Source of the DNA: Muricea muricata
Taxonomy: Eukaryota > Cnidaria > Anthozoa > Malacalcyonacea > Plexauridae
Reading direction: 5' to 3'
NCBI GenBank assembly: GCA_963855995.1
Contig: OY979723.1
Span: 10,678,713 to 10,742,712 of the forward strand
Length of the DNA stretch: 64,000 nucleotides
Shown: positions 1 through 39,600 of the stretch, in pieces
How the letters are laid out: each line of letters opens with the position of its first letter
Numbering within the stretch: the first letter of the stretch is position 1
The notes under the pieces: model-generated
The model's database searches: none
What the model was told of the DNA's origin: nothing
The model's input: only the letters and a program-made list of their open reading frames with translations
Position numbers and translations under genes: made by a program

Positions 1-14
1 TGGGGGTCACGCGC

Positions 15-461
15 ATAGAGATTATAAATAACACTAGAGAGGACATCGAAGGCAAAAAAAGGGAGCGCGGCTATTGGGGGGCAAATTCAAGTCCCGGATG
101 TTCACTCATTCACGATGTCCCAGGCAAAAAAGTCATTTTAGACGAGTTTTTTTTGCTTTTTGAAATGTTTTTCCTCGTAAAAATATTGAAAATATCATTT
201 AAGATTGTCTAAAACAATAAAAACAATTGAAAAAGTACTATTTTGCCCACAAAACCGGCAAAACGACCTCAACAACGATGAGGAAAGCATTTCATACAGA
301 TTTCTGCTGTTGCTAAGGTGGTTGCTAAGGAAGCATTAGCTCAGCCAATAAGCGCCTGGCCCTGCATCCGGGACTTGAATTTGCCCCCCAATAAACGCGT
401 TCCCTTTTTTATCAGTGAAAAAGATTACAATGCCTCCTCTAGTGTTATTTATAATCTCTAT
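15..461. mobile_element. MULE-like MITE with long terminal inverted repeats
   Basis: The left end (from 15, atagagattataaataac) is the reverse complement of the right end (to 461). After an indel, a second block of about 45 bp also matches inverted: 61-100 against 365-410, containing ttggggggcaaattcaagtc. A direct repeat ggtcacgcgc flanks the element at 5-14 and 462-471. Long TIRs with a 9-10 bp target duplication are typical of Mutator-like elements. There is no transposase, so it is non-autonomous. The superfamily is inferred from structure only. Confidence 0.75.
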
Positions 462-471
462 GGTCACGCGC

Positions 472-846
472 GCTAGGTATACGTCAGCAATCTAGGTCTA
501 CTATATCTATGGTCTCAAAGTATAGCAATTAGTATTATTAGCATACTTCCGGCTGCAAAGCCAAATCGAAGTTGCATTTTCAGTTTGGCTAAGGTGTTAA
601 AATAGGGGATTTGATTGGGCTGTCGCGTGATGGTATTTTCATCGTTCTGTGAGAAGTCATGAAAGTCGACTTAAATGTAATTTAGTTTATATTAATAAGA
701 CAAAGTATCTCAACTGTGAAAGCGAATCGAATCGCGGGCTTGTGATTGGAACATGGAACACGCGAGTAATCCACGCGACCAAAGGAAGCTGGAAGAAAGT
801 TTCTTTTAGTTTCTTGGGAATCGCCTAGAACAACAAATTGTAAAAG
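472..846 (+). promoter_or_regulatory. Upstream region and probable 5' UTR of the caspase gene
   Basis: This is non-coding sequence between the MITE and the caspase ATG. No convincing TATA box was seen. The base just before the start reads TAA AAG ATG G (841-850), so an in-frame stop lies one codon upstream of the ATG. The start context (A/G at -3, G at +4) is favourable. Transcription start is unknown. Confidence 0.4.
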
Positions 847-943
847 ATGGCGAGCAAATTTAACGTTAATATTCAGGGTGGAAGTGGTAGTATAATCATG
901 GGAGACAATACAAATGTCGATATAACTCACAATAGTGGTGCAG
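847..943 (+). CDS. Caspase exon 1: RHIM-like amyloid motif
   Basis: Encodes residues 1-32 plus the first base of codon 33. The ATG follows an in-frame TAA, so no additional domain is encoded directly upstream in this exon. The donor is CAG|GTATGT. Almost the whole exon is the Asn/Gly/Ile-rich motif: IIMGDNTNV aligns with the (I/V)Q(I/V)G-type RHIM core followed by Asp/Asn-Asn, as in RIPK3-type motifs. Confidence 0.85.
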
Positions 944-3896
944 GTATGTATTAAAACAAAGAATATAACACCATACGATTGTTTTTACATGTAATTTATT
1001 ACTTAATTGCAACAACCGCTTTCTTAGAAATAACGTCGAATTTTTACTTTTTCTAAAACCATTTCGAAATAAACCATTTTGAACCTTGACAGTTAACTTG
1101 CTGAGGTGTGCCCGATGTGGTAGCATGTCAACTAAAAGTCTTGACTTTTCAATGCAAGCCAGTTTATATGTGTTGTGTATTCTTTAAAAAAACTGATTTG
1201 CAAAGAATGCTTGAAACCTTGTTCAGAATGATGTGATGCGGATAAATTAAAATGAGTGGCTTGATATTTTTTCTGAACCCATTGTGTATTCCATGTAAAC
1301 TCCACCCAAAGATATGCGAATATTTACTAGATTTACTGTTGTGTTTTGCTGAATCCACGACAAAGATCTTCGGCGTTGAAATGTTGAATACATGGAATGG
1401 TTCTAAGCCAGTCAAATCATGTAACAACTTAAATCCACATTTTGCTGTTAGTACGAGAAAGGTTTATTGAATTTTTGGGAATTACCCTGTATAAGTACAA
1501 TAGGTATTGATTTTTTTGGGAATTACCATGTATAAGTACAATATTGATTTTTTGGGAATTACCCTGTATAAGTACAAGCACTGAAGACTAGAAGAATAAC
1601 TAGAAGCTTCTCTCCATCATCAATTACTAGTCATGCTTTGCACAGTTTGGTGTGCTCATTTCAGTACTCTGAAGTCTGAACAAAGTGAATTATTATTTTC
1701 CATCCACCACACTGACATTGCATCATTTTCAAAATTGGTAGGTAGCCATTTCATCTTGCAAGGGTTAGAATTACAATTGGAATAAGAGACATTTTGAAAG
1801 ATATTTGTTATTGAAAATGGCATTACGTCTATATGAATGATGGGAACGAGTAGCGAACTGAATTACGCTAGTTTAGGTTGATATGCAGGGCCAGTGGAGT
1901 AATTTCAAATGGGGAGGCTAAGGTTGAACTCTGAATATGTAATCAATCTAGTGTGGTCCCTGGGAAATTTTGAAAATTACAACCACAGAAATGCCATTTT
2001 CATGATTTGGCCATTGCATTTGTCTACAGTTTCAGTAACTCTGCAGGATTTGTTATTAACACTAATTGGCCCATTATCAGCATAGAAATCTTCATCTGCG
2101 ATGAAAAGTTAGGGGGCTGAAGCCTTCCAGCCCCACCCTCTCCATGGTCCCTGATATGAAAAGCAGGAAGGTTTCAGGGAGAGTGAACCTTCTAGTTTCT
2201 GACTGTTCTGTGATGCAATTTGAAAGTAGTCTAAAACAGTCCATATATCCTTTGTGGTTCTTAACTTAGTAATGGCAAATGAAATAGATGAAATTCATTA
2301 TTATGTGTAAATTTTTCAATAGGACCCAGACGGCGACCAAATGTTCATATAACACGACCAGTTGTGGGTATGTTGTACACTGAATTTGCTACAAAATACC
2401 TTTTGATTTTGCATTGATGTGCACTTTGTATTAATATTATTCTCAATTGTTTTGTTTAATTTAGCGACGACTGTACCAGTGCAGCCTGTTGCAGGTAAGG
2501 ATCACATTTGCAGCTAGATAGATATAGTTTTCGTTCCTACATTCCTAGTAGTGGTGAAGCCAGCCTGACATTTGGTCATGCAAATGCAAATTTTTCAGTG
2601 TTTATAGAGTGTCTAAGGAATTAATTTCTAAAGAAATGAATAATGATAATGATTTAAATTTGCATAGTATGACCAAATTGTTGAGCTGGCTTCGCTACTG
2701 TTTCCTAGTTGAGGTTGGCTAAAGTGTGAGCCTGTGAGTCAGAGCCTGTGATTCGGAACCTTCTTTTGCAATTGCCAAGCATTATTTTATTAGCTTTTAT
2801 TTGTGCATTTTCTTACCTTCGTCATAGCTTGGGATGCAAGGTTGATCTGAGGCTAAATGTACCAGAAAGTTGAGGGTTAGGGTTAGTGAAGGCTTGCAAT
2901 GGCAAAGGTTTGCAAAATCAGGTAATTGGGGCATGTCTCACTAAGACTTGATGCTGAGCTCTTAAGAATAAGATAAGCTGTACTAAGCTGCTGACTAAAA
3001 TTCATAAAGAACAAAACAGGCATATAACCCAAAACCAGGCTCATGGCTCACAAATTTAGGCGCACATTTTAGCAACTCCCCTATTGCTTCACCCTGGCAT
3101 GAAATGAAAATTAAATTTTTCTCTTGTAGTTCATGGAGTTCAAGAAACAGAGGGTTCAACAAATTTTCGGTACAAAATCCAAAAGGGTTTTGCATTGATA
3201 ATTCACAATAAATATTTTCCCAACAGAGGTGTTCCTGAAAGGGAAGGCTCGGAACAAGACGAGTTAGTAATAAAGAAGTTTTGTGAAGAAGCTGGCTTTG
3301 CTATCAACCAAACAAGTATGAAAACAAAAAACCTGAAGGCATGTCAAATGTACGATCTCTGTACAGAGATTGCTGAGCGAAGTTTTAGTCGCTATGATGC
3401 GTTTGCTTGTTTCATTTTGAGCCATGGTTGTGAAGATGGTATATATGGAACAGATGACAAAACGATAAGCATTCAAGACATTGTTACAAAATTCAAGGAA
3501 TGTGAAGGCTTGTTTGGCAAGCCTAAATTGTTCTTTATCCAAGCATGCCAAGGTACCAATCAAGATAGTGGAATAAGTATTGAGGCTGATAGTCATCCAG
3601 TGAGTCCACCGATTAACCGACTGAGAATGCCCACTGACTCAGATATACTCGTGGCTAATTCTACAGTACCTGGTTATGAAGCGTACAGAAGTGTTGAGGG
3701 TGGGTCGTGGTTTATTCGTACGTTGATGGAGAAGCTTGAAGAGCATGCACATGAAATGCATCTGATGGATATTCTGACTTTGGTGAACCATAAAATTGCT
3801 GGTTATTCCACACCAACCAACCTGAAGCAAATGTCTTGTCAAATGACCACTCTGACAAAATTTGTGTACTTTAATTATCCGGCACCATTGAGCTAA
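847..3896 (+). CDS. Caspase with N-terminal RHIM-like motif (complete, 4 exons)
   Basis: Cysteine protease of the caspase family (C14), predicted to cut after Asp in apoptosis or inflammatory death. Exons are 847-943, 2323-2367, 2465-2494 and 3130-3896, all joined in phase 1, giving 312 aa. The large subunit has the catalytic His in LSHGCEDG (H156) and the catalytic Cys in QACQG (C197). The small subunit carries YRSVEGGSWFI (about 243-253). Asp after IEA (D211) is a plausible interdomain cleavage point. There is no CARD or DED: the roughly 75-residue prodomain holds a RHIM-like core IIMGDNTNV (residues 16-24) preceded by NIQGGSGS, then a Pro/Val-rich linker. The catalytic domain resembles caspase-3/7-type or caspase-8-type proteases; orthology cannot be set from here. 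The family call is sure; the RHIM-like function is inferred from motif similarity. Confidence 0.95.
1465..1576. repeat. Minisatellite, about 3 copies of a 41-43 bp unit
   Basis: Three near-identical units each contain ttttgggaattaccctgtat followed by aagtacaa. They differ by small indels in the T-run and one substitution (ccctg/ccatg). The array lies inside caspase intron 1. Confidence 0.85.
1886..2153. mobile_element. hAT-like MITE in caspase intron 1
   Basis: The left end cagggccagtggag and the inverted right end cagggaccatggag (read on the - strand from 2153) form hAT-type CAGGG...TGGAG termini. The flanks share tgatatg (1879-1885 and 2152-2158), which overlaps the right terminus, so the target duplication is ambiguous. 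It has no coding capacity. Confidence 0.5.
2323..2367 (+). CDS. Caspase exon 2 (45-nt micro-exon)
   Basis: Bounded by tttttcaatag and G|GTATGT, phase 1 on both sides. It encodes a basic/Pro linker (PRRRPNVHITRPVV) between the RHIM-like motif and the protease. It is supported by frame continuity, with no stop across the four joined exons. Confidence 0.75.
2465..2494 (+). CDS. Caspase exon 3 (30-nt micro-exon)
   Basis: Acceptor ttgtttaatttag, donor GCAG|GTAAGG, phase 1. It encodes TTVPVQPVA, further linker. The symmetric phase means it could be skipped without a frameshift, so transcript evidence is needed. Confidence 0.65.
2495..3129 (+). other. Caspase intron 3
   Basis: GT-AG intron (gtaagg...ttctcttgtag), phase 1. 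It contains the 152-bp hAT MITE and a short telomere-like run gggttagggttag near 2874-2886. No coding signal was seen. Confidence 0.75.
2549..2700. mobile_element. hAT MITE in caspase intron 3
   Basis: Left terminus tagtggtgaagccag (2549-2563) and right terminus ctggcttcgctactg (2686-2700) are inverted matches. The inverted similarity continues inward (tttggtcatgcaaatgc against gcatagtatgaccaaa). Flanks attcctag (2541-2548) and tttcctag (2701-2708) form an 8-bp target duplication with one mismatch. The same terminus ends the larger element at 50,587-51,818. Confidence 0.75.
3130..3896 (+). CDS. Caspase exon 4: whole protease domain
   Basis: Acceptor ctcttgtag, stop TAA at 3894-3896. This single exon carries both the large and small subunits, from the beta-1 region (KGFALIIHNKYFPNRG) to the C-terminal FVYFNYPAPLS. 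Both catalytic residues are present. Confidence 0.95.
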
Positions 3897-4500
3897 ACAG
3901 GAAGCTTATAACGTTTCAAATTTTGAAGATTTCCTGCAGGACTTTGAATTGTGTTTATAATTAACAGACAGCTTATTTTACAATTTACCTGGAAATTTCT
4001 TACATTGAAGATTTTATTCCTGTATTTACATATATCTATTGAAGCCTATTGACATATAAGTGTATGGCAATTGTTAGTGCATATTAACAAATCAGTAAAA
4101 TGAGGACAAGCTTGAGAAACAAACGCCTGGTAATAAGTAGTGATCTGTGCTTACATTGACCTCTCAACGATCCCACCAAATGTAAGCAGCTTTGGTAAAA
4201 AAAATTGCATATATGGTCACACTGCTCTCACCAACCCTACATAATCCTGAGAGTTTGTAAAGGATCCCACGAGACGATCACATGGAACTTTGCTGGAAAC
4301 TGTTGCAGAACCCCATGAAATCGAAAATGGCCTGAGCTCTTGCATGCTCCCATTCAATGCTACTGTAAAAGCTGGGCAACATGTTTAAAAACTATTTGTG
4401 CAAATAATTGTTTGCTTTTTATTATCATTATTATTGTCATGATATTTAGCCAGGATACCAACATCACCCAAGTGTTTTTAAGTTTTACAATAAATTTGGT
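3897..4500 (+). terminator. Caspase 3' UTR with candidate poly(A) signal
   Basis: AT-rich sequence after the stop. A consensus AATAAA occurs at 4489-4494, about 600 nt past the stop. The actual cleavage site is not visible from sequence alone. Confidence 0.4.
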
Positions 4501-4830
4501 TCAAACCAGTGTCTGTTTTAATTTATCCAATCATGGATTAAAACACCTAATAAGTTAAAGAGCTGAGTGACTGTCCTTTATTCAACCAAGGTCATGCCCA
4601 CAAAATTTTGCCATACCCACTTTTTCCCTTTTGATTAATGTCAAAACTACTCTTGATTGACAAAAGAGTACTAAAAGAAATATTTCCAAGCTTCTAAGGC
4701 ATCTAGAAAACGTTTAGATTTTATAGTAACCCACTTTAAGCTTAACTGGCTTTTGATTGTGGAATGCAAGGATACTCCTGGGTGACAGTCACATGGGATC
4801 ACCTGTAGGGTATATTGATTGTGATTTATT

Positions 4831-32975: not shown

Positions 32976-35957
32976 CACGTTCGCGTACTTTTCATTGAAA
33001 TCAATGTCAAACTGAGCTATATATTTACTGTTTGAAACTGGAGTGGGTATGTTGACATACACAGTCTATTCCCATGCAATTACGAAGAAGGACGAAAATT
33101 ACACCTGGTCAAGCTTGGCCTTTAACATGTCGGCATTTTTGATGCTTCCCTTATCTTATAGTGTGATGTCATTGAATATAACGACGCATCATCACAGGCG
33201 CTCGACACATTACAGCTTTAATGTTGTTTTGAGGGATCGAGGCTCATGCTTTGTCTGAATAATTTCTCTAAAACCGCAGACATTTTGTGGAGTAGAATAC
33301 ACTAATTAGCAGTCCATCGCAAAAAAAACTGAATTAAAGCTTCTTTCCGAAGACTGATACCTAAATAGGATCTTTCTGATTGGCTAAAACGAAGAAAGCG
33401 TTAGTAACTCACTCATTTAGAATACGCCTAGGTCACCTTCTGATGTATGCGAAAGAGTGTCTAACAAACCAAAGTGTGGAATGGATATTAGATTGATTTT
33501 GCAAGGGTATATACTTGTATATGAAATTCACTCAATCACATCGGCCAGAAGAAGGCATTCCCGATTCTTACGACAAGTGGACAGTATATAGATTATGTTC
33601 GTCGAATCTTTTTTCCATCAGCGGATATTTCCTTTCGATTTTTTTCATTTCAAGTGTCCTATCCGCTTGCATAATTGCTGATGATGTTGATAACACATGT
33701 CGAAATTTTGAACGTATTCCAGAAAAATTACCAGCAAAATCCCGTTCAACTTCTTTCATCTTGCGAGTGCCTCTAGTCTGGAGGTCAAGAATTTTTGGAC
33801 AATTATAATTCTGTTGTTGCTTTATACGTACAAAATGTTGTAACCCCTGGCAAAATTACTGTCACCTTATTCGATCATCCCCTCTAATATCAAGGTGACG
33901 AGGATGTAGATCAGAGTTCGGATTTCAACACACATTGCCTAGGGGGTTGGATCACTTGAGTTATCAATTTCACGCGGATTTCTGACCTGTTACGAGTACT
34001 TTTTTTATTTTTGCCACACGATATAGTGACTGAAATGTGAGTACACAAAATCAGTTGGATCTTTCACTACCTGAAAACGATATACAGCAGAATTCGACGT
34101 TTGGAGCGAAGCCCCTAGACAGTAAGGAAGTCAGTACTAGCTCCCCAAAGAAGGGCCTCCAAACGTCATATTCTGTTTGTATTGTTTAAGGTTGTGGAAG
34201 ATCCTATGTTTTTGTGTGCTTTTGACTCCACTACCTGCACTGGCAACGTTTGTTTAAAATCTGACTAGAATGCTGATGTAGGAGCAACGTTCCCGAGCTT
34301 TTAATGTGGGCTTTAGTGCTTCAAATTCACATGCAAGTGCTAATAAGTGGAGCTCGATAATTAATGTACATTTTATCAGGAGTACGATCAGCTAAATTGG
34401 ATGAAGATATATACTTGGGAAAACATATTTTACTTGAATATTCGTCTCGGCTTTTCTGTTCTTTTAAGTAATTGTTCAACTAATATTAAATAAAGTATGA
34501 ACTCTTTGAAATCACTTTGGCACTAATATAACATACATTCAGATAATTATAATGTCGTGAATTATTAAGATAGCTCAAGCCACGTACGAAAGTGCATATT
34601 TATGTATAATTTACAATGATACATACAAACTTGTCGGCACTGAACCAGCAATATTAACTAAATGCAAAAGTACTTAGTCTGTTCGGCAGGAGGCAGTCTT
34701 ATTTGTTTTTGGCAGTGCCGAATTCTAAGAGAAATCATAAGTAATTATCAGTATACAAACAGTGTACTCAGATCAAACTGGGACGCGATTTTGATGCGAT
34801 TATATTTCACAAATCGTTTTTATCTTCGGAAATTCGGCGGCATTTTTAAGAAGTTGAAAAATCGGCTTACAATGAAAAGCTCTCAAAGTATATACATTAG
34901 GAAAGAAAAACCGTTTTCCCAATCTCGACATTCGCGAAATACTAGCGTAAAGCCCTGGGCATTTTAACGCTTTCCTTTAACCAGAGCCAGAGGTGTCTGA
35001 ACTGCATGTTTGAACGACTTCATCAGAGGAAATCTGAAGGGTGGGTAACGATTTGTGTTTTGGTTGTAAATGAGTTTTTCCTGGACGAATGTACCGGAAA
35101 AAGTCTTAAGAGTATTTTATGCAGGGGAACTTAAACCGCCTTCTAAGCTACATTGCGAAATGTGGAATGATACACTATAGAATCCATGTACAAGGAATGG
35201 TCGAAATCTTGATCAAAAATTAGGAGGGAAAATCGCGGGAAATTCGTGCTCTCAAAAATCGGTTTGATATTTCCTGGTTTTTGTTAGGTCTTGAACACGA
35301 GTATTTGAGGATTTTTAAACAATTATTTACACTTTATTTGTCTGTTGTCAAACAAAAAAAAAGATAAGATTCTCCCTTCAAAATTCAACCCAACTTCATA
35401 AACTCTTTTCTCTATGGGGATTATCTTCTAACTTTGTAATAAGTGTATCACTCTACCTCTACGCTATCCCTTAACCCACCTATTCACCCTTCCATTCCCC
35501 TAAACCTTGTAATGTTTAAACGTGAATGAACGTGTGTATGCAGGCAAACACCACTCCATCCGTTTTGTAAAATGATACGTTATTTCCTAGCTTTGCCTTT
35601 GCGACGAGTCAGTGAGTAGCAAACTCCAATATTTTCATATCGTATGAACCCCCCATCTGGCAAAAACTCCACGGAATCAAACACACGATTAATTATAGAG
35701 AGCATGGCAAAAATCAATTAGTACGCATGATGATCCAAATTAACGTTAATTACCACTTTGGAAATTCCGGTCATATTGCCTACTCCGGAGATGAGTTCGG
35801 GTCTTCGACCGCCCCAAACTATGCTTTCAGTGATGACTTGCTCCGCCTAGCGCATACGTCCGTGCCAATATCGTATTTCGCTGTCCCAACCGCGTAAGTC
35901 ATTTGTTATTAGATGTCCTAGCGGGTAGGAGAGGAGAGCGTAGCGTTGCGCGCTAGG
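32976..35957. other. Upstream region of the PDZRN gene
   Basis: No coding exon seen. Contains foldback copy 5. Above the ATG, in-frame stops lie at 35,910 and 35,919. No TATA box was recognised close to the start, so the transcript may use an upstream or spliced 5' UTR. Confidence 0.45.
34050..34260. repeat. Dispersed foldback repeat, best-preserved copy
   Basis: Left arm ggatctttcactacctgaaa, cagaattcgacgtttggagc. Right arm inverse of ataggatcttccac, cagaatatgacgtttgga, and agtgcaggtagtgg. It is probably a MITE family; arms of about 90 bp flank a short centre. Confidence 0.65.
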
Positions 35958-36674
35958 ATGGGTTTTCCATTAGAATTGTTTGTCGACTCGGTAGACGAGA
36001 GTCTCAAATGCGACCTGTGTAAGGCCGTTTATCGAAACCCCGTGATAACGTCCTGCGATCACGTTTATTGTGAACAGTGTTTGAAAGAGTGGCTGAGCGA
36101 CAGAAGTAGCTGTCCAAGAGCTTGTAAAGAGATTTCGTTAGAGAAAGATGTAACGCATTTGATACCTTTACAGATACTCGTCGAGCAGTTGCGGACACGG
36201 TGCGTGAACTTCACAGAAGGCTGTAAGGTTGTCCTCTCGCTGGCGGAGATGCTGGCGCATCTGGGAATGTGTGATTATACCAAGAAAGAAGTAGGCGCTC
36301 TCACACGCGCAGCTTGTTCAACCGAGCAAGTATCGCAGCCGGAAGTCAACTCGATGAATCAAGTATTCGTATGTAGTAAAGGCTGCGGACTGCCGCTCCT
36401 CTTTCAAGACTCGACCGAACACGACTGTGTTAAATCGTTGTACGCGCAAGTGTGTTCCCTGCAAACGAAACTCTCGCGCTCCGAGCACGAACGTGAGAAG
36501 GTCTCTGCTCGTCTCGTGAAGCGCGAGGAGGCAATGCAAGAGCGTTTTACACAGCTCGAGAGAGATTTAAGATCCTACCAAGAGCAAACATTGAATTATG
36601 AACTCCAATCGCGTGATCAGCGTTCACAGATTAACTACTTGAGAAGACAACTTGATAGCCGAGGATCAGACCAG
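35958..36674 (+). CDS. PDZRN exon 1: RING, TRAF zinc finger, coiled coil
   Basis: The ATG at 35,958 follows an in-frame TAG at 35,919. The donor is CAG|GTTAGA. The segment after the first TRAF-type finger is shortened: the second Cys/His finger of vertebrate PDZRN3 looks degenerate, leaving CSKGCGLPLLF (about 145-155). Heptad-like charged sequence fills residues 165-235. Confidence 0.93.
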
Positions 36675-39600
36675 GTTAGATATTATTCTCATTTTTTTCA
36701 TGTTTTAGGAGATAACTGGATGCATTTAAGTATACGACCCCGTTAAATTAACGGCGAATTAAACCTGTGATTAAACTGCCTTGTTCTTTAATAAATCCTG
36801 TTTCATCCGTCACCCAACTCTTGTTCGCTGACCATATACAGAGTAAAAGGTTTAAAGGTTTTGTTAAGAACGAGGTCGTTTCACGCGGTGCTTACTTGTG
36901 TAGGCCATTTGTGGAAAGCAATGTTTTTATACGAGGTTGCGCTTTCGGGCTTGGCGTATTTGACTTCATGTTTCCGAGGGTAAAATGACACTCGCTGGAG
37001 ATTATGTTTAGTATTAGTGGAAAACTGTAAGACAGAGTATAATTGGATCCATTTCAAATCAAAACATGAACGATGGCTTTTTAAACAATGCGTATGTGAT
37101 TTATTTTGACTAACACATTGTCTGGCCTTAGATTCCGGCTTTTGTGCTTTGTTTTCATGCCTTTTAATGATGCGTATTGCGTTTATTATCATTTAAGATT
37201 TATTTTAGATCCAATTTAACTAAAGCTTCGTCCTGATTTGGAAGTGCGGTCATTCGATGCGCGCTTACTCGATAACGAGGCTAGGAAATATATTTATGGA
37301 AATTCATTAAATTCACTCCTCGAAAACGCTAATTGCAAAATACGTTGCCGTGTATAGTTTAAGGCGGACGGCGCTATTTAAACACTTTTCAATGTTTTAA
37401 GCGAAGTCTTCTGCCTTCTAAAACGGCTGAATAGTTTCAAACGGTAGTTCAGACACAAACTCCGACAGCTTATTGTTGAAAACAAACCTACAAAAAGCCT
37501 TGACGTACACTGTTTTAAAATGTACGCGCACGTCTATAAACTTGTTGGATCTGTGAGGTCTGCGTGTCCTCCTCGGCGATATTGATGCATTTTTAGTGTC
37601 AAGACATATTACGTAAGTATTAACGGTTTAAAACCTCTGGACTGAAGTATAAACGTCTTGACAACAAATAACATTGTTGTTGCTAAGTACTTGTTTAGGA
37701 AAAATCAACATTTCGAGTAAGTGTCGTGCCGATGTTGGGACCTCCGCTAATATCAATTGATATACAAAGCTACAACGATGCTCGCTTAGTATGTATAAAT
37801 AGACAAATGATCAAGATTTCATAAACAACCGACATACATTGAAAGGGTTCGCGTTTGCATCCCGCATCGTCGGTGCGTCAACGTAATTCGAAACGGGCCT
37901 TGTTGTCCTCGTATGTTATCGAAGTGCGTGCGTGTAATTTTAGCATATGCAGCACGATGGCTGCTGGGTCGTGTGTTGCTTGGTTGAGTAAAGTTTACGA
38001 TTATGAGTTTGTTTTGTCCCTCGTTACACTCTTGTTGTCGTGGCTAATTGTGCAGCAGCCCCAGTCTCCAGCAGTGTAAAAGTGTTTAGTCAAGTATCGC
38101 TCGCGGGCATGCGCGCGCCCACTTTTAAATGAATACAAACACACCATAGAATGCTTGCAATTCTATGTCCTCGTTCAGAACTTTCATTTCCTTTCTCTTT
38201 ACAAAATAACCAATGTAGTTAAGGCGTAGAGTAGCTTGTTCTTGTCGGAAAAGGAAGACATTAGTATTGGTTTGAACTAAATTAACATCATCCAATTTAT
38301 GCACTTATTCGAACTAACCGCAGGCCACAAGATGATACACTAACTGTTTTGGATTCAAATATATTCTGCCAAAGAATAAAAACCCGTCAGTAAATCTCCG
38401 TAGAGCTTTCCACAATCTATTGGAGGATATCTCATCTTTTCCGCAGATCATGGCTCCTGTCATCTCCGTAATCTCGTTACAGCTCAAGTATAAGTTTAAA
38501 TTAGAATATAAAGCGTATCAACTCGTACTGCGCTCGAGGGCAAGAAAAACAAGCTCAAAGATTAGACGAGAAAGTAATGATTTCACGATGTGCAGCCCAC
38601 AAACATTCTATATTTCACAGGTTTATGTTTTTGCTAATGCCGCGGGGACAATGTCGTTTGTTTTGTCTACAATACATTCGCTTTATCTCATCAATACGGC
38701 ATTTGCGAAGCATGTAATTATAGCGTTCAAAGCGGAAAGAATTAACAATTTATGACCTTAATTTTGTTGTTCTTTGTGCGTCTCCTCAGGTAACGGATGA
38801 GAACGATATCAGAATTACAATCGAACGTTCTGGCGGGATATTGGGTCTGAACATTCGAGGTGGAACCGAGGTAAGAAAATTACTTAAAATTGAGGTAAGG
38901 TGCGTAATACGACCCTTCTCCTCTTCTATAGTGCAAAGTTAATCCATCCCACCCCCCAAAAAGAGGTTAATTGCCACATTTCACTTAATTGCAACATTCC
39001 TACCATTCCCCAAGTGCTCTTATACTAATAATAAGTATTAACGATAATAATAATAATTCTTAAATCTTAAGAACTTAATTATCTCCATTACATCTTTTCG
39101 TCAAATATTGTAAAAAGGGCTAGATTAAATTCCGAGACGGAATGTAAGCAGGCATTAGGTATGTGAGATAAGAATTTGTGTCTCTTCGTTTACTGTGTTC
39201 CCGGGACACCAATGTCTTCTCTCTAACGTTGTAGCTAAACAGTGCTTTGAATTGCTCGTCTGGCGAATGTAAATATTTCTAGCTAATTAAAATATTTCAG
39301 GTTAGTTCTAATCGGATGCAAATATTTTCGAACCAGATCCAATAAGTGATAACTTTAAAAATTTTCATGCTTCTGTATTTGTTCAAGTAATCCCTTGTGC
39401 TCTTATTGTTGATGAAACATTGAGTGTCGACGGGCAAGCCTCGTGTTTATTTCGAGATATACATCGTTTAACACCAATAGAACAATCACATTACTTTTTG
39501 CTGAATTTAACATGAAGTAATGGACCGTATTTTTAGCCAGACTTGTTGGGGTAAATGCAATTAACGCAATCCGCATTACATAGCTTAGATAACCGACAAA

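Follow-up and report, generated by a model that had tools for sequence, protein, structure and literature searches.

An anthozoan caspase with a conserved N-terminal module that may act in the manner of an amyloid signalling motif

Introduction

Could an animal caspase be recruited through a clustering motif of its own, with neither CARD nor DED? A gene of the anthozoan Muricea muricata raises this question. The preliminary description of the locus took its first exon for a RHIM-like amyloid motif, spliced in frame to an intact caspase that could be activated by amyloid templating. The RHIM core follows the consensus (V/I)Q(V/I/L/C)G (PMC9182532, PMC9444067), and PMC7889193 poses as an open question whether the RHIM is the only signalling amyloid of animals. 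Corals are described as having caspases with a CARD, caspases with a DED and caspases with short prodomains (PMC7586219, PMC4715348), and RIPK1 homologues are reported in PMC12119088 as not found in cnidarians. Here, we examine the gene model, the conservation of the first exon and its relation to RHIMs and other amyloid motifs, and weigh the possible functions of the prodomain.

Gene model and exon 1

The gene lies near the start of the window, by which we mean the whole stretch of 64,000 nucleotides analysed (assembly GCA_963855995.1, contig OY979723.1, positions 10,678,713 to 10,742,712). Its four predicted exons are listed in Table 1. All introns are GT-AG and every intron is in phase 1, as checked by script, and the joined frame stays open throughout its 312 codons plus stop, giving a predicted caspase of 312 amino acids. 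Exon 1 codes for MASKFNVNIQGGSGSIIMGDNTNVDITHNSGA plus one extra base. In the catalytic exon the reading frame is open from 3108 to 3896 and has its first methionine only at the stretch SMKTKN, within the large subunit, so an upstream coding exon is required.

The best support for the model is a paralog upstream with an identical arrangement of four exons and phases. The protease might instead be reached from another first exon, with 847-943 belonging to a different transcript, since the phase-1 acceptors of exons 2 to 4 would accept any phase-1 exon, and 32 candidate exons before position 3130 begin at a first ATG and end at a phase-1 GT donor. We regard this as scarcely credible: the donor of 847-943 agrees with 8 of 9 consensus positions and is the best of the 32, the paralog repeats the arrangement, and ten plus-strand open reading frames (ORFs) between the paralog and exon 1 gave no Pfam match over the curated cut-off, in a scan that took in all but one of the ORFs of at least 50 amino acids there. 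Eight of the ten come from the upstream locus, one of them extending into the window, and two from the window.

Exons 2 and 3 are mini-exons whose lengths are multiples of three, in phase 1-1, and the paralog has the same arrangement. The linker of the prodomain could thus be lengthened or shortened by splicing with the frame kept.

Table 1. Predicted features of the caspase gene, in window coordinates.
Feature	Position	Strand	Basis or remark
In-frame TAA, two codons 5' of the ATG at 847	841..843	+	Read from the sequence
Exon 1: start codon and candidate 32-residue prodomain module, RHIM-like or beta-arch-like	847..943	+	Phase-1 donor GTATGT
First putative beta segment NVNI, residues 6-9	862..873	+	NVSI in the paralog; AlphaFold2 strand 4-9
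Core IIMG and GDNTNV, residues 16-24	892..918	+	Position matches RHIM (V/I)Q(V/I/L/C)G and N-rich residues; VFMGDNANV in the paralog
Exon 2, 45 nt, phase 1-1, basic linker	2323..2367	+	Paralog exon 2 is 42 nt
Exon 3, 30 nt, phase 1-1, Val/Pro-rich linker	2465..2494	+	Paralog exon 3 is 30 nt
Exon 4, caspase (Peptidase_C14) and stop codon	3130..3896	+	Pfam, PDB alignments
SHG with catalytic His156	3420..3428	+	Caspase-3/7 alignment
QACQG with catalytic Cys197	3540..3554	+	Caspase-3/7 alignment
IEAD (residues 208-211), likely intersubunit cleavage site	3579..3590	+	Aligned with caspase-7 QAD/S; putative cleavage
AATAAA, candidate polyadenylation signal	4489..4494	+	The only one within 3897-4700

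The protease domain

The Pfam profile Peptidase_C14 covers residues 76-304 (E 6.4e-46) from profile position 1 to 233 of 233. No CARD, DED or RHIM was found at E<=10 in the 312-residue protein, and the sole other Pfam row was DUF1256 at 0.049, under the cut-off. Neither the protein nor the ten upstream plus-strand ORFs yielded the CARD or DED prodomain of an initiator caspase (Pfam). The nearest relatives in the PDB are caspase-3 and caspase-7 (E ~1e-40). His156, Cys197, Arg95 and Arg244 align with the same residues of these two enzymes, as in a caspase of the C14A type, and we take Arg95 and Arg244 to be substrate-binding residues. Judged from the alignment, the active site of the protease is intact. 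AlphaFold2, given exon 4 alone, returned a mean pLDDT of 32, too low to be of use. The preliminary description had exon 1 spliced in frame to a caspase that was intact, with neither CARD nor DED; splice sites, phases, Pfam results and a paralog of the same structure bear this out for the predicted gene model.

Compared with vertebrate caspase-3/7, the protein shares the aligned catalytic His, Cys and Arg residues and has IEAD/S opposite QAD/S of caspase-7, but it has QACQG in place of QACRG, Tyr243 in place of Trp, and a different N-terminus. Human caspase-8 also has QACQG (PMC7586219). Among cnidarian caspases, the gene resembles the short-prodomain OfCasp3b and PaCasp3, which have neither CARD nor DED (PMC7586219). 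Unlike these two (QACRG), it shares QACQG with the CARD-bearing OfCasp3a and PaCasp7a (PMC7586219). The excerpts of PMC7586219 describe no prodomain motif for OfCasp3b or PaCasp3, a comparison made by description and not by prodomain sequence.

A tandem paralog with the same module

The closest other gene is a tandem paralog that lies upstream, with 4.2 kb between the end of its coding sequence and exon 1 of the window gene. Its exon 1 is MESKYNVSIDGRATVFMGDNANVEITHKDGSGSAG, and its N-terminus reads MESKYNVSID-GRATVFMGDNANVEITHKDGSG. The two proteins are identical at 17 of 32 positions over window residues 1-32, at 12 of 45 columns of the linkers and at 185 of 237 positions of the caspase domains. 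The columns invariant in both copies are M1, S3, K4, N6, V7, I9, G12, M18, G19, D20, N21, N23, V24, I26, T27, H28, G31 and G33, and those within exon 1 preserve alternating hydrophobic residues and a GDN turn. Conservation of residues 6-26 in related species, which the preliminary description made a test of its proposal, was checked on this paralog of the same genome, where residues 5-27 are identical at 12 of 23 positions.

Estimated by the Nei-Gojobori method for the same pair, dN/dS is 0.34 in exon 1, 0.71 in the linker and 0.21 in the caspase. Exon 1 differs at 8.7 of 17.5 synonymous and 17.3 of 75.5 nonsynonymous sites (p 0.037); its nonsynonymous change is lower than that of the linker (p 0.0012) and higher than that of the caspase (p 0.0077). 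When the DNA of the two copies was aligned and compared with shuffles, exon 1 gave z = 11, as against 2.2 for the 100 nt that precede the ATG and 3.4 for the 100 nt that follow the donor; exon 2 gave 3.4 and exon 3 gave 2.1. Purifying selection on exon 1, together with flanks that are far less conserved, therefore marks the N-terminus that exon 1 encodes, as judged from this pair, as a conserved module and not a chance string; all of these conservation measures come from one pair of sequences.

The paralog's module is charged where the window's is not, at D10, R12, E24, K28 and D29 (paralog numbering). The charge-poor composition of the window copy is therefore not conserved.

Relation of the module to RHIMs

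The RHIM core tetrad is absent from both copies, which have IIMG (window) and VFMG (paralog). The preliminary description had cautioned that the core Q was replaced by I, as indeed it is in the window copy, and the paralog has F. It had also asked for a profile search of the exon 1 peptide, which came out negative: Pfam RHIM (PF12721) gave no row at E<=10 for the 66-residue prodomain, exon 1, three sub-peptides, paralog exon 1 or the whole paralog protein, with the proviso that HMMER filters may hide weak matches, and the same profile recovered a human RIPK3 peptide at 2.3e-11. One sub-cut-off Pfam row was returned for paralog exon 1 (aRib, 0.053).

Shuffle tests gave a mixed result. Against RIPK3, the p-values were 0.034 for the window copy, 0.13 for the paralog and 0.016 for the ungapped profile of the pair, which are marginal values among several tests; with other scoring tables the window copy gave 0.21 (PAM30) and 0.027 (BLOSUM45). 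Against RIPK1, they were 0.55, 0.88 and 0.84 for window, paralog and pair profile, so the similarity is nil. Reversed RIPK3 as a control gave 0.50 and 0.54, and in the comparison of RIPK1 with RIPK3 none of 5,000 shuffles reached the real score under each of three tables. The p-values of RIPK likeness are drawn from two sets of six tests each, and the likeness to RIPK3 appears as a hint that is lost once the number of tests is corrected for. The paralog spacing V.I.....V..GDN is that of RIPK3 VNIYNCSGVQVGDN, without gaps. Sequence searches of the PDB at E<=10 retrieved no RHIM chain with the exon 1 peptide (3 rows) or the two-copy profile (11 rows), and RIPK3 as a control retrieved RIPK1 at 0.02.

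We therefore reject RHIM membership, since neither copy has the core Q, Pfam RHIM is silent and similarity to RIPK1 is nil. The claim that the prodomain is a RHIM falls on these points, with a Pfam control that passes and a RIPK3 similarity that is marginal. What stands of the earlier reading is a discrete N-terminal module of hydrophobic segments and G/N turns, conserved in the paralog and followed by a fast-evolving linker and an intact caspase without CARD or DED; its identity as a RHIM does not stand.

The likeness to RHIM proteins (PF12721; RIPK1, RIPK3, ZBP1, TRIF) consists of a length of about 20 residues, a hydrophobic-x-hydrophobic-G core, short hydrophobic segments, a tether, and a place on a cell-death protein; the GDN of the prodomain is also present in RIPK3. 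The differences are I or F for the core Q, the lack of a Pfam match, and the position on a protease instead of a kinase or adaptor. Bacterial BASS3 and fungal PP motifs are likewise short, terminal and G/N-rich, with a beta-arch architecture that the module may share. BASS motifs occur on bacterial CHAT proteases of the caspase fold, less frequently than on Bell domains (PMC7889193), and the PP core is NxGxQxGxN (PMC9815663). The module lacks the PP core and its Q, no NLR partner was found for it, and it sits on an animal-type caspase, not a CHAT protease; its likeness to BASS is by description only. Pfam HET-S matched none of the prodomain peptides of either copy.

Search for partners and relatives

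Amyloid signalling motifs operate in receptor-effector pairs (PMC12261475), and the preliminary description had suggested looking for other proteins with the motif in the same genome. None turned up beyond the caspase pair: with either copy as query, the exon 1 motif gave 2 matches in the 453-Mb genome at E<=10, both of them the two caspases, in searches that had only 2 candidates at first pass each time and could miss a diverged partner. Pfam RHIM over the genome gave no match above cut-off and five weak ones (E 1.23-8.2) in frames that we read as chance; this search reads exon by exon and keeps the best candidates only, so that a motif that is split or has diverged might escape it. A two-sequence profile and a regular expression, run on 14,770 open frames of the window and of loci fetched from the same genome, recovered only the two known copies, the next best scoring 8.4 bits. 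Since no upstream partner is in sight in the genome searches, we hold self-clustering to be likelier than cross-templating from a RHIM protein. That the searches yielded no second protein with the motif speaks for nucleation by the module itself, for a partner that has diverged, or for a role unrelated to amyloid.

Beyond this genome, tblastn of exon 1 against plasmids gave nothing at E<=10, and NCBIfam nothing at E<=1. The whole caspase protein found no relative in viral contigs, where 11 stretches fit a pattern and none was confirmed. A 15-residue motif pattern at the DNA level matched no viral contig and two stretches of genome contigs, both from Cloacimonadota; the pattern fixed the window's spacing and is a weak test for BASS motifs. 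In both stretches, NMGGGVGT(V/I)MIGDNT lies within a long unrelated protein (3571-3615 and 2637-2681 of the fetched stretches). The two proteins are similar to each other and are not caspases, and we set them aside as chance convergence. Among the matches listed in the open-access literature, none was a caspase with a RHIM or amyloid prodomain, and exact phrases such as 'RHIM-containing caspase' had 0 hits.

Possible functions of the prodomain

Our preferred reading, held tentatively, is that exon 1 encodes a homotypic prodomain of beta-arch type, resembling amyloid signalling motifs, that clusters the procaspase. The self-assembly module, of about 24 residues, would occupy the free tip of a flexible linker that evolves fast, and G/N-rich turns would connect its three short hydrophobic segments (FNVNI, SIIM and VDIT). 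Procaspase molecules would stack by means of the module, presumably as beta-arches of amyloid nature, and stacking would bring the protease domains together, leading to dimerisation and activation by proximity. The dimerised proteases would then cleave their own linkers at the putative site IEAD/S. Under this reading the prodomain would act like a RHIM or a BASS/PP motif, yet it is not classed as a RHIM. A RHIM-like mode of action appears to be the most economical reading of the prodomain's anatomy, closely followed by that of a docking peptide.

Several properties count in favour of an amyloid-type motif: the short, terminal and tethered architecture, the alternating hydrophobic residues, the conserved G, D and N, and the charge-poor window copy. 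In this one pair, a short terminal motif is tethered to an effector and conserved as a unit, which is a general mark of amyloid signalling. Residues 5-31 of the window copy contain no A, K, R, E, L, P, C, W or Y, a feature shared by 0 of 200,000 random 33-mers, whichever of two compositions they were drawn from, a figure that overstates the case, the composition and two-arch patterns having been written after the peptide was seen. The paralog's charges within the module count against a purely compositional argument, and that exon 1 evolves faster than the caspase counts against the amyloid-type reading. In fibrils of the RIPK3 RHIM, three beta segments form an S-shape with the tetrad at its centre (PMC9444067). 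Single-sequence AlphaFold2 of exon 1 predicted two strands, at residues 4-9 and 12-17, with a mean pLDDT of 72.6 and a pTM of 0.23, too weak to count; the model has no third strand, and its second strand does not coincide exactly with the putative SIIM segment.

The module may almost as well be put to another use. Quite possibly it is a conserved short docking or regulatory peptide, a linear motif or beta strand that attaches to a single partner, or back onto the caspase, without polymerising; the enzyme would then be a short-prodomain caspase of the ordinary kind, switched on by caspases upstream of it. Purifying selection requires only that there be some function, the paralog's module tolerates charges, a single pair of motifs was found in the genome, and short-prodomain caspases that lack CARD and DED have been described as a class in cnidarians, all of which would fit such a peptide; set against it, a beta-arch would account for alternating hydrophobics, N/G turns and a flexible tether more readily than would a linear motif of the usual sort. 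One version, an IAP-binding N-terminus (A-S-K-F after removal of Met), is ruled out by the paralog, which begins with MESK. We consider it improbable that the resemblance is accidental, with exon 1 as the loosely constrained, G/N/I-rich tail of an executioner-like caspase. The relaxed tetrad [VILM].[VILMC]G is common enough: it turns up in 9.5-13% of random 33-mers, and 43 of the window's 374 Met-led open 33-mers have it too. With an N close behind, it still occurs in 1.1-1.5% of random 33-mers and 6 of the 374; the two Cloacimonadota proteins, too, match the 15-residue version with no caspase attached. The conservation of exon 1 beyond its flanks and beyond the linker argues against accident.

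Very improbable, in our judgement, is the proposal of the preliminary description taken literally, namely a true RHIM, descended from RHIM, PP or BASS3 and able to cross-seed RHIM proteins. Its best points are the pair-profile score against RIPK3 and the shared spacing of the paralog; they are met by the missing Q of both copies, the silence of Pfam RHIM on these peptides and, above cut-off, on the genome, the nil similarity to RIPK1 and the PDB searches.

If the module does cluster the procaspase by amyloid-type assembly, such a prodomain would answer the question posed in PMC7889193, with amyloid control directly on the protease. A wider and more doubtful proposal is that, in a lineage of animal caspases, a signalling-amyloid prodomain carried by the protease took the place of recruitment by CARD or DED, which would let the protease nucleate itself directly; such caspases would be an animal counterpart of the bacterial BASS-CHAT proteases, and their motif would make up, besides the RHIM, a second family of animal signalling amyloids. 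Should the amyloid reading fail, there remains a caspase whose conserved prodomain we found described nowhere in the literature searched.

Genomic surroundings

The genome shows a large expansion of caspases. At E<=0.001, 103 stretches of the 453-Mb genome (74 contigs) match the caspase protein, several of them with stops, with groups on the window's own contig (C8, 9.69-9.85 Mb) and on contigs C7 and C1 (33-36 Mb). Six fetched caspase genes of the same genome have QNCR or QSCR at the active site instead of QAC(R/Q). Among all fetched caspase loci, exon 1 of the window gene was absent except in the tandem pair.

Just upstream of the gene, window positions 14-462 contain nested inverted repeats (14-46 with 430-462, and 55-100 with 365-410) that are 91-93% complementary, and this segment looks like a small inverted-repeat transposable element. 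Intron 1 carries a 36-nt unit three times, almost head-to-tail, at 1465-1577. Further along the window, an ORF at 35922-36743 encodes a RING finger, and downstream on the same strand 53316-54119 matches a partial PDZ domain (E 0.0029, below cut-off). Together, the two suggest a RING-PDZ E3 ligase gene, presumably of the PDZRN/LNX kind.
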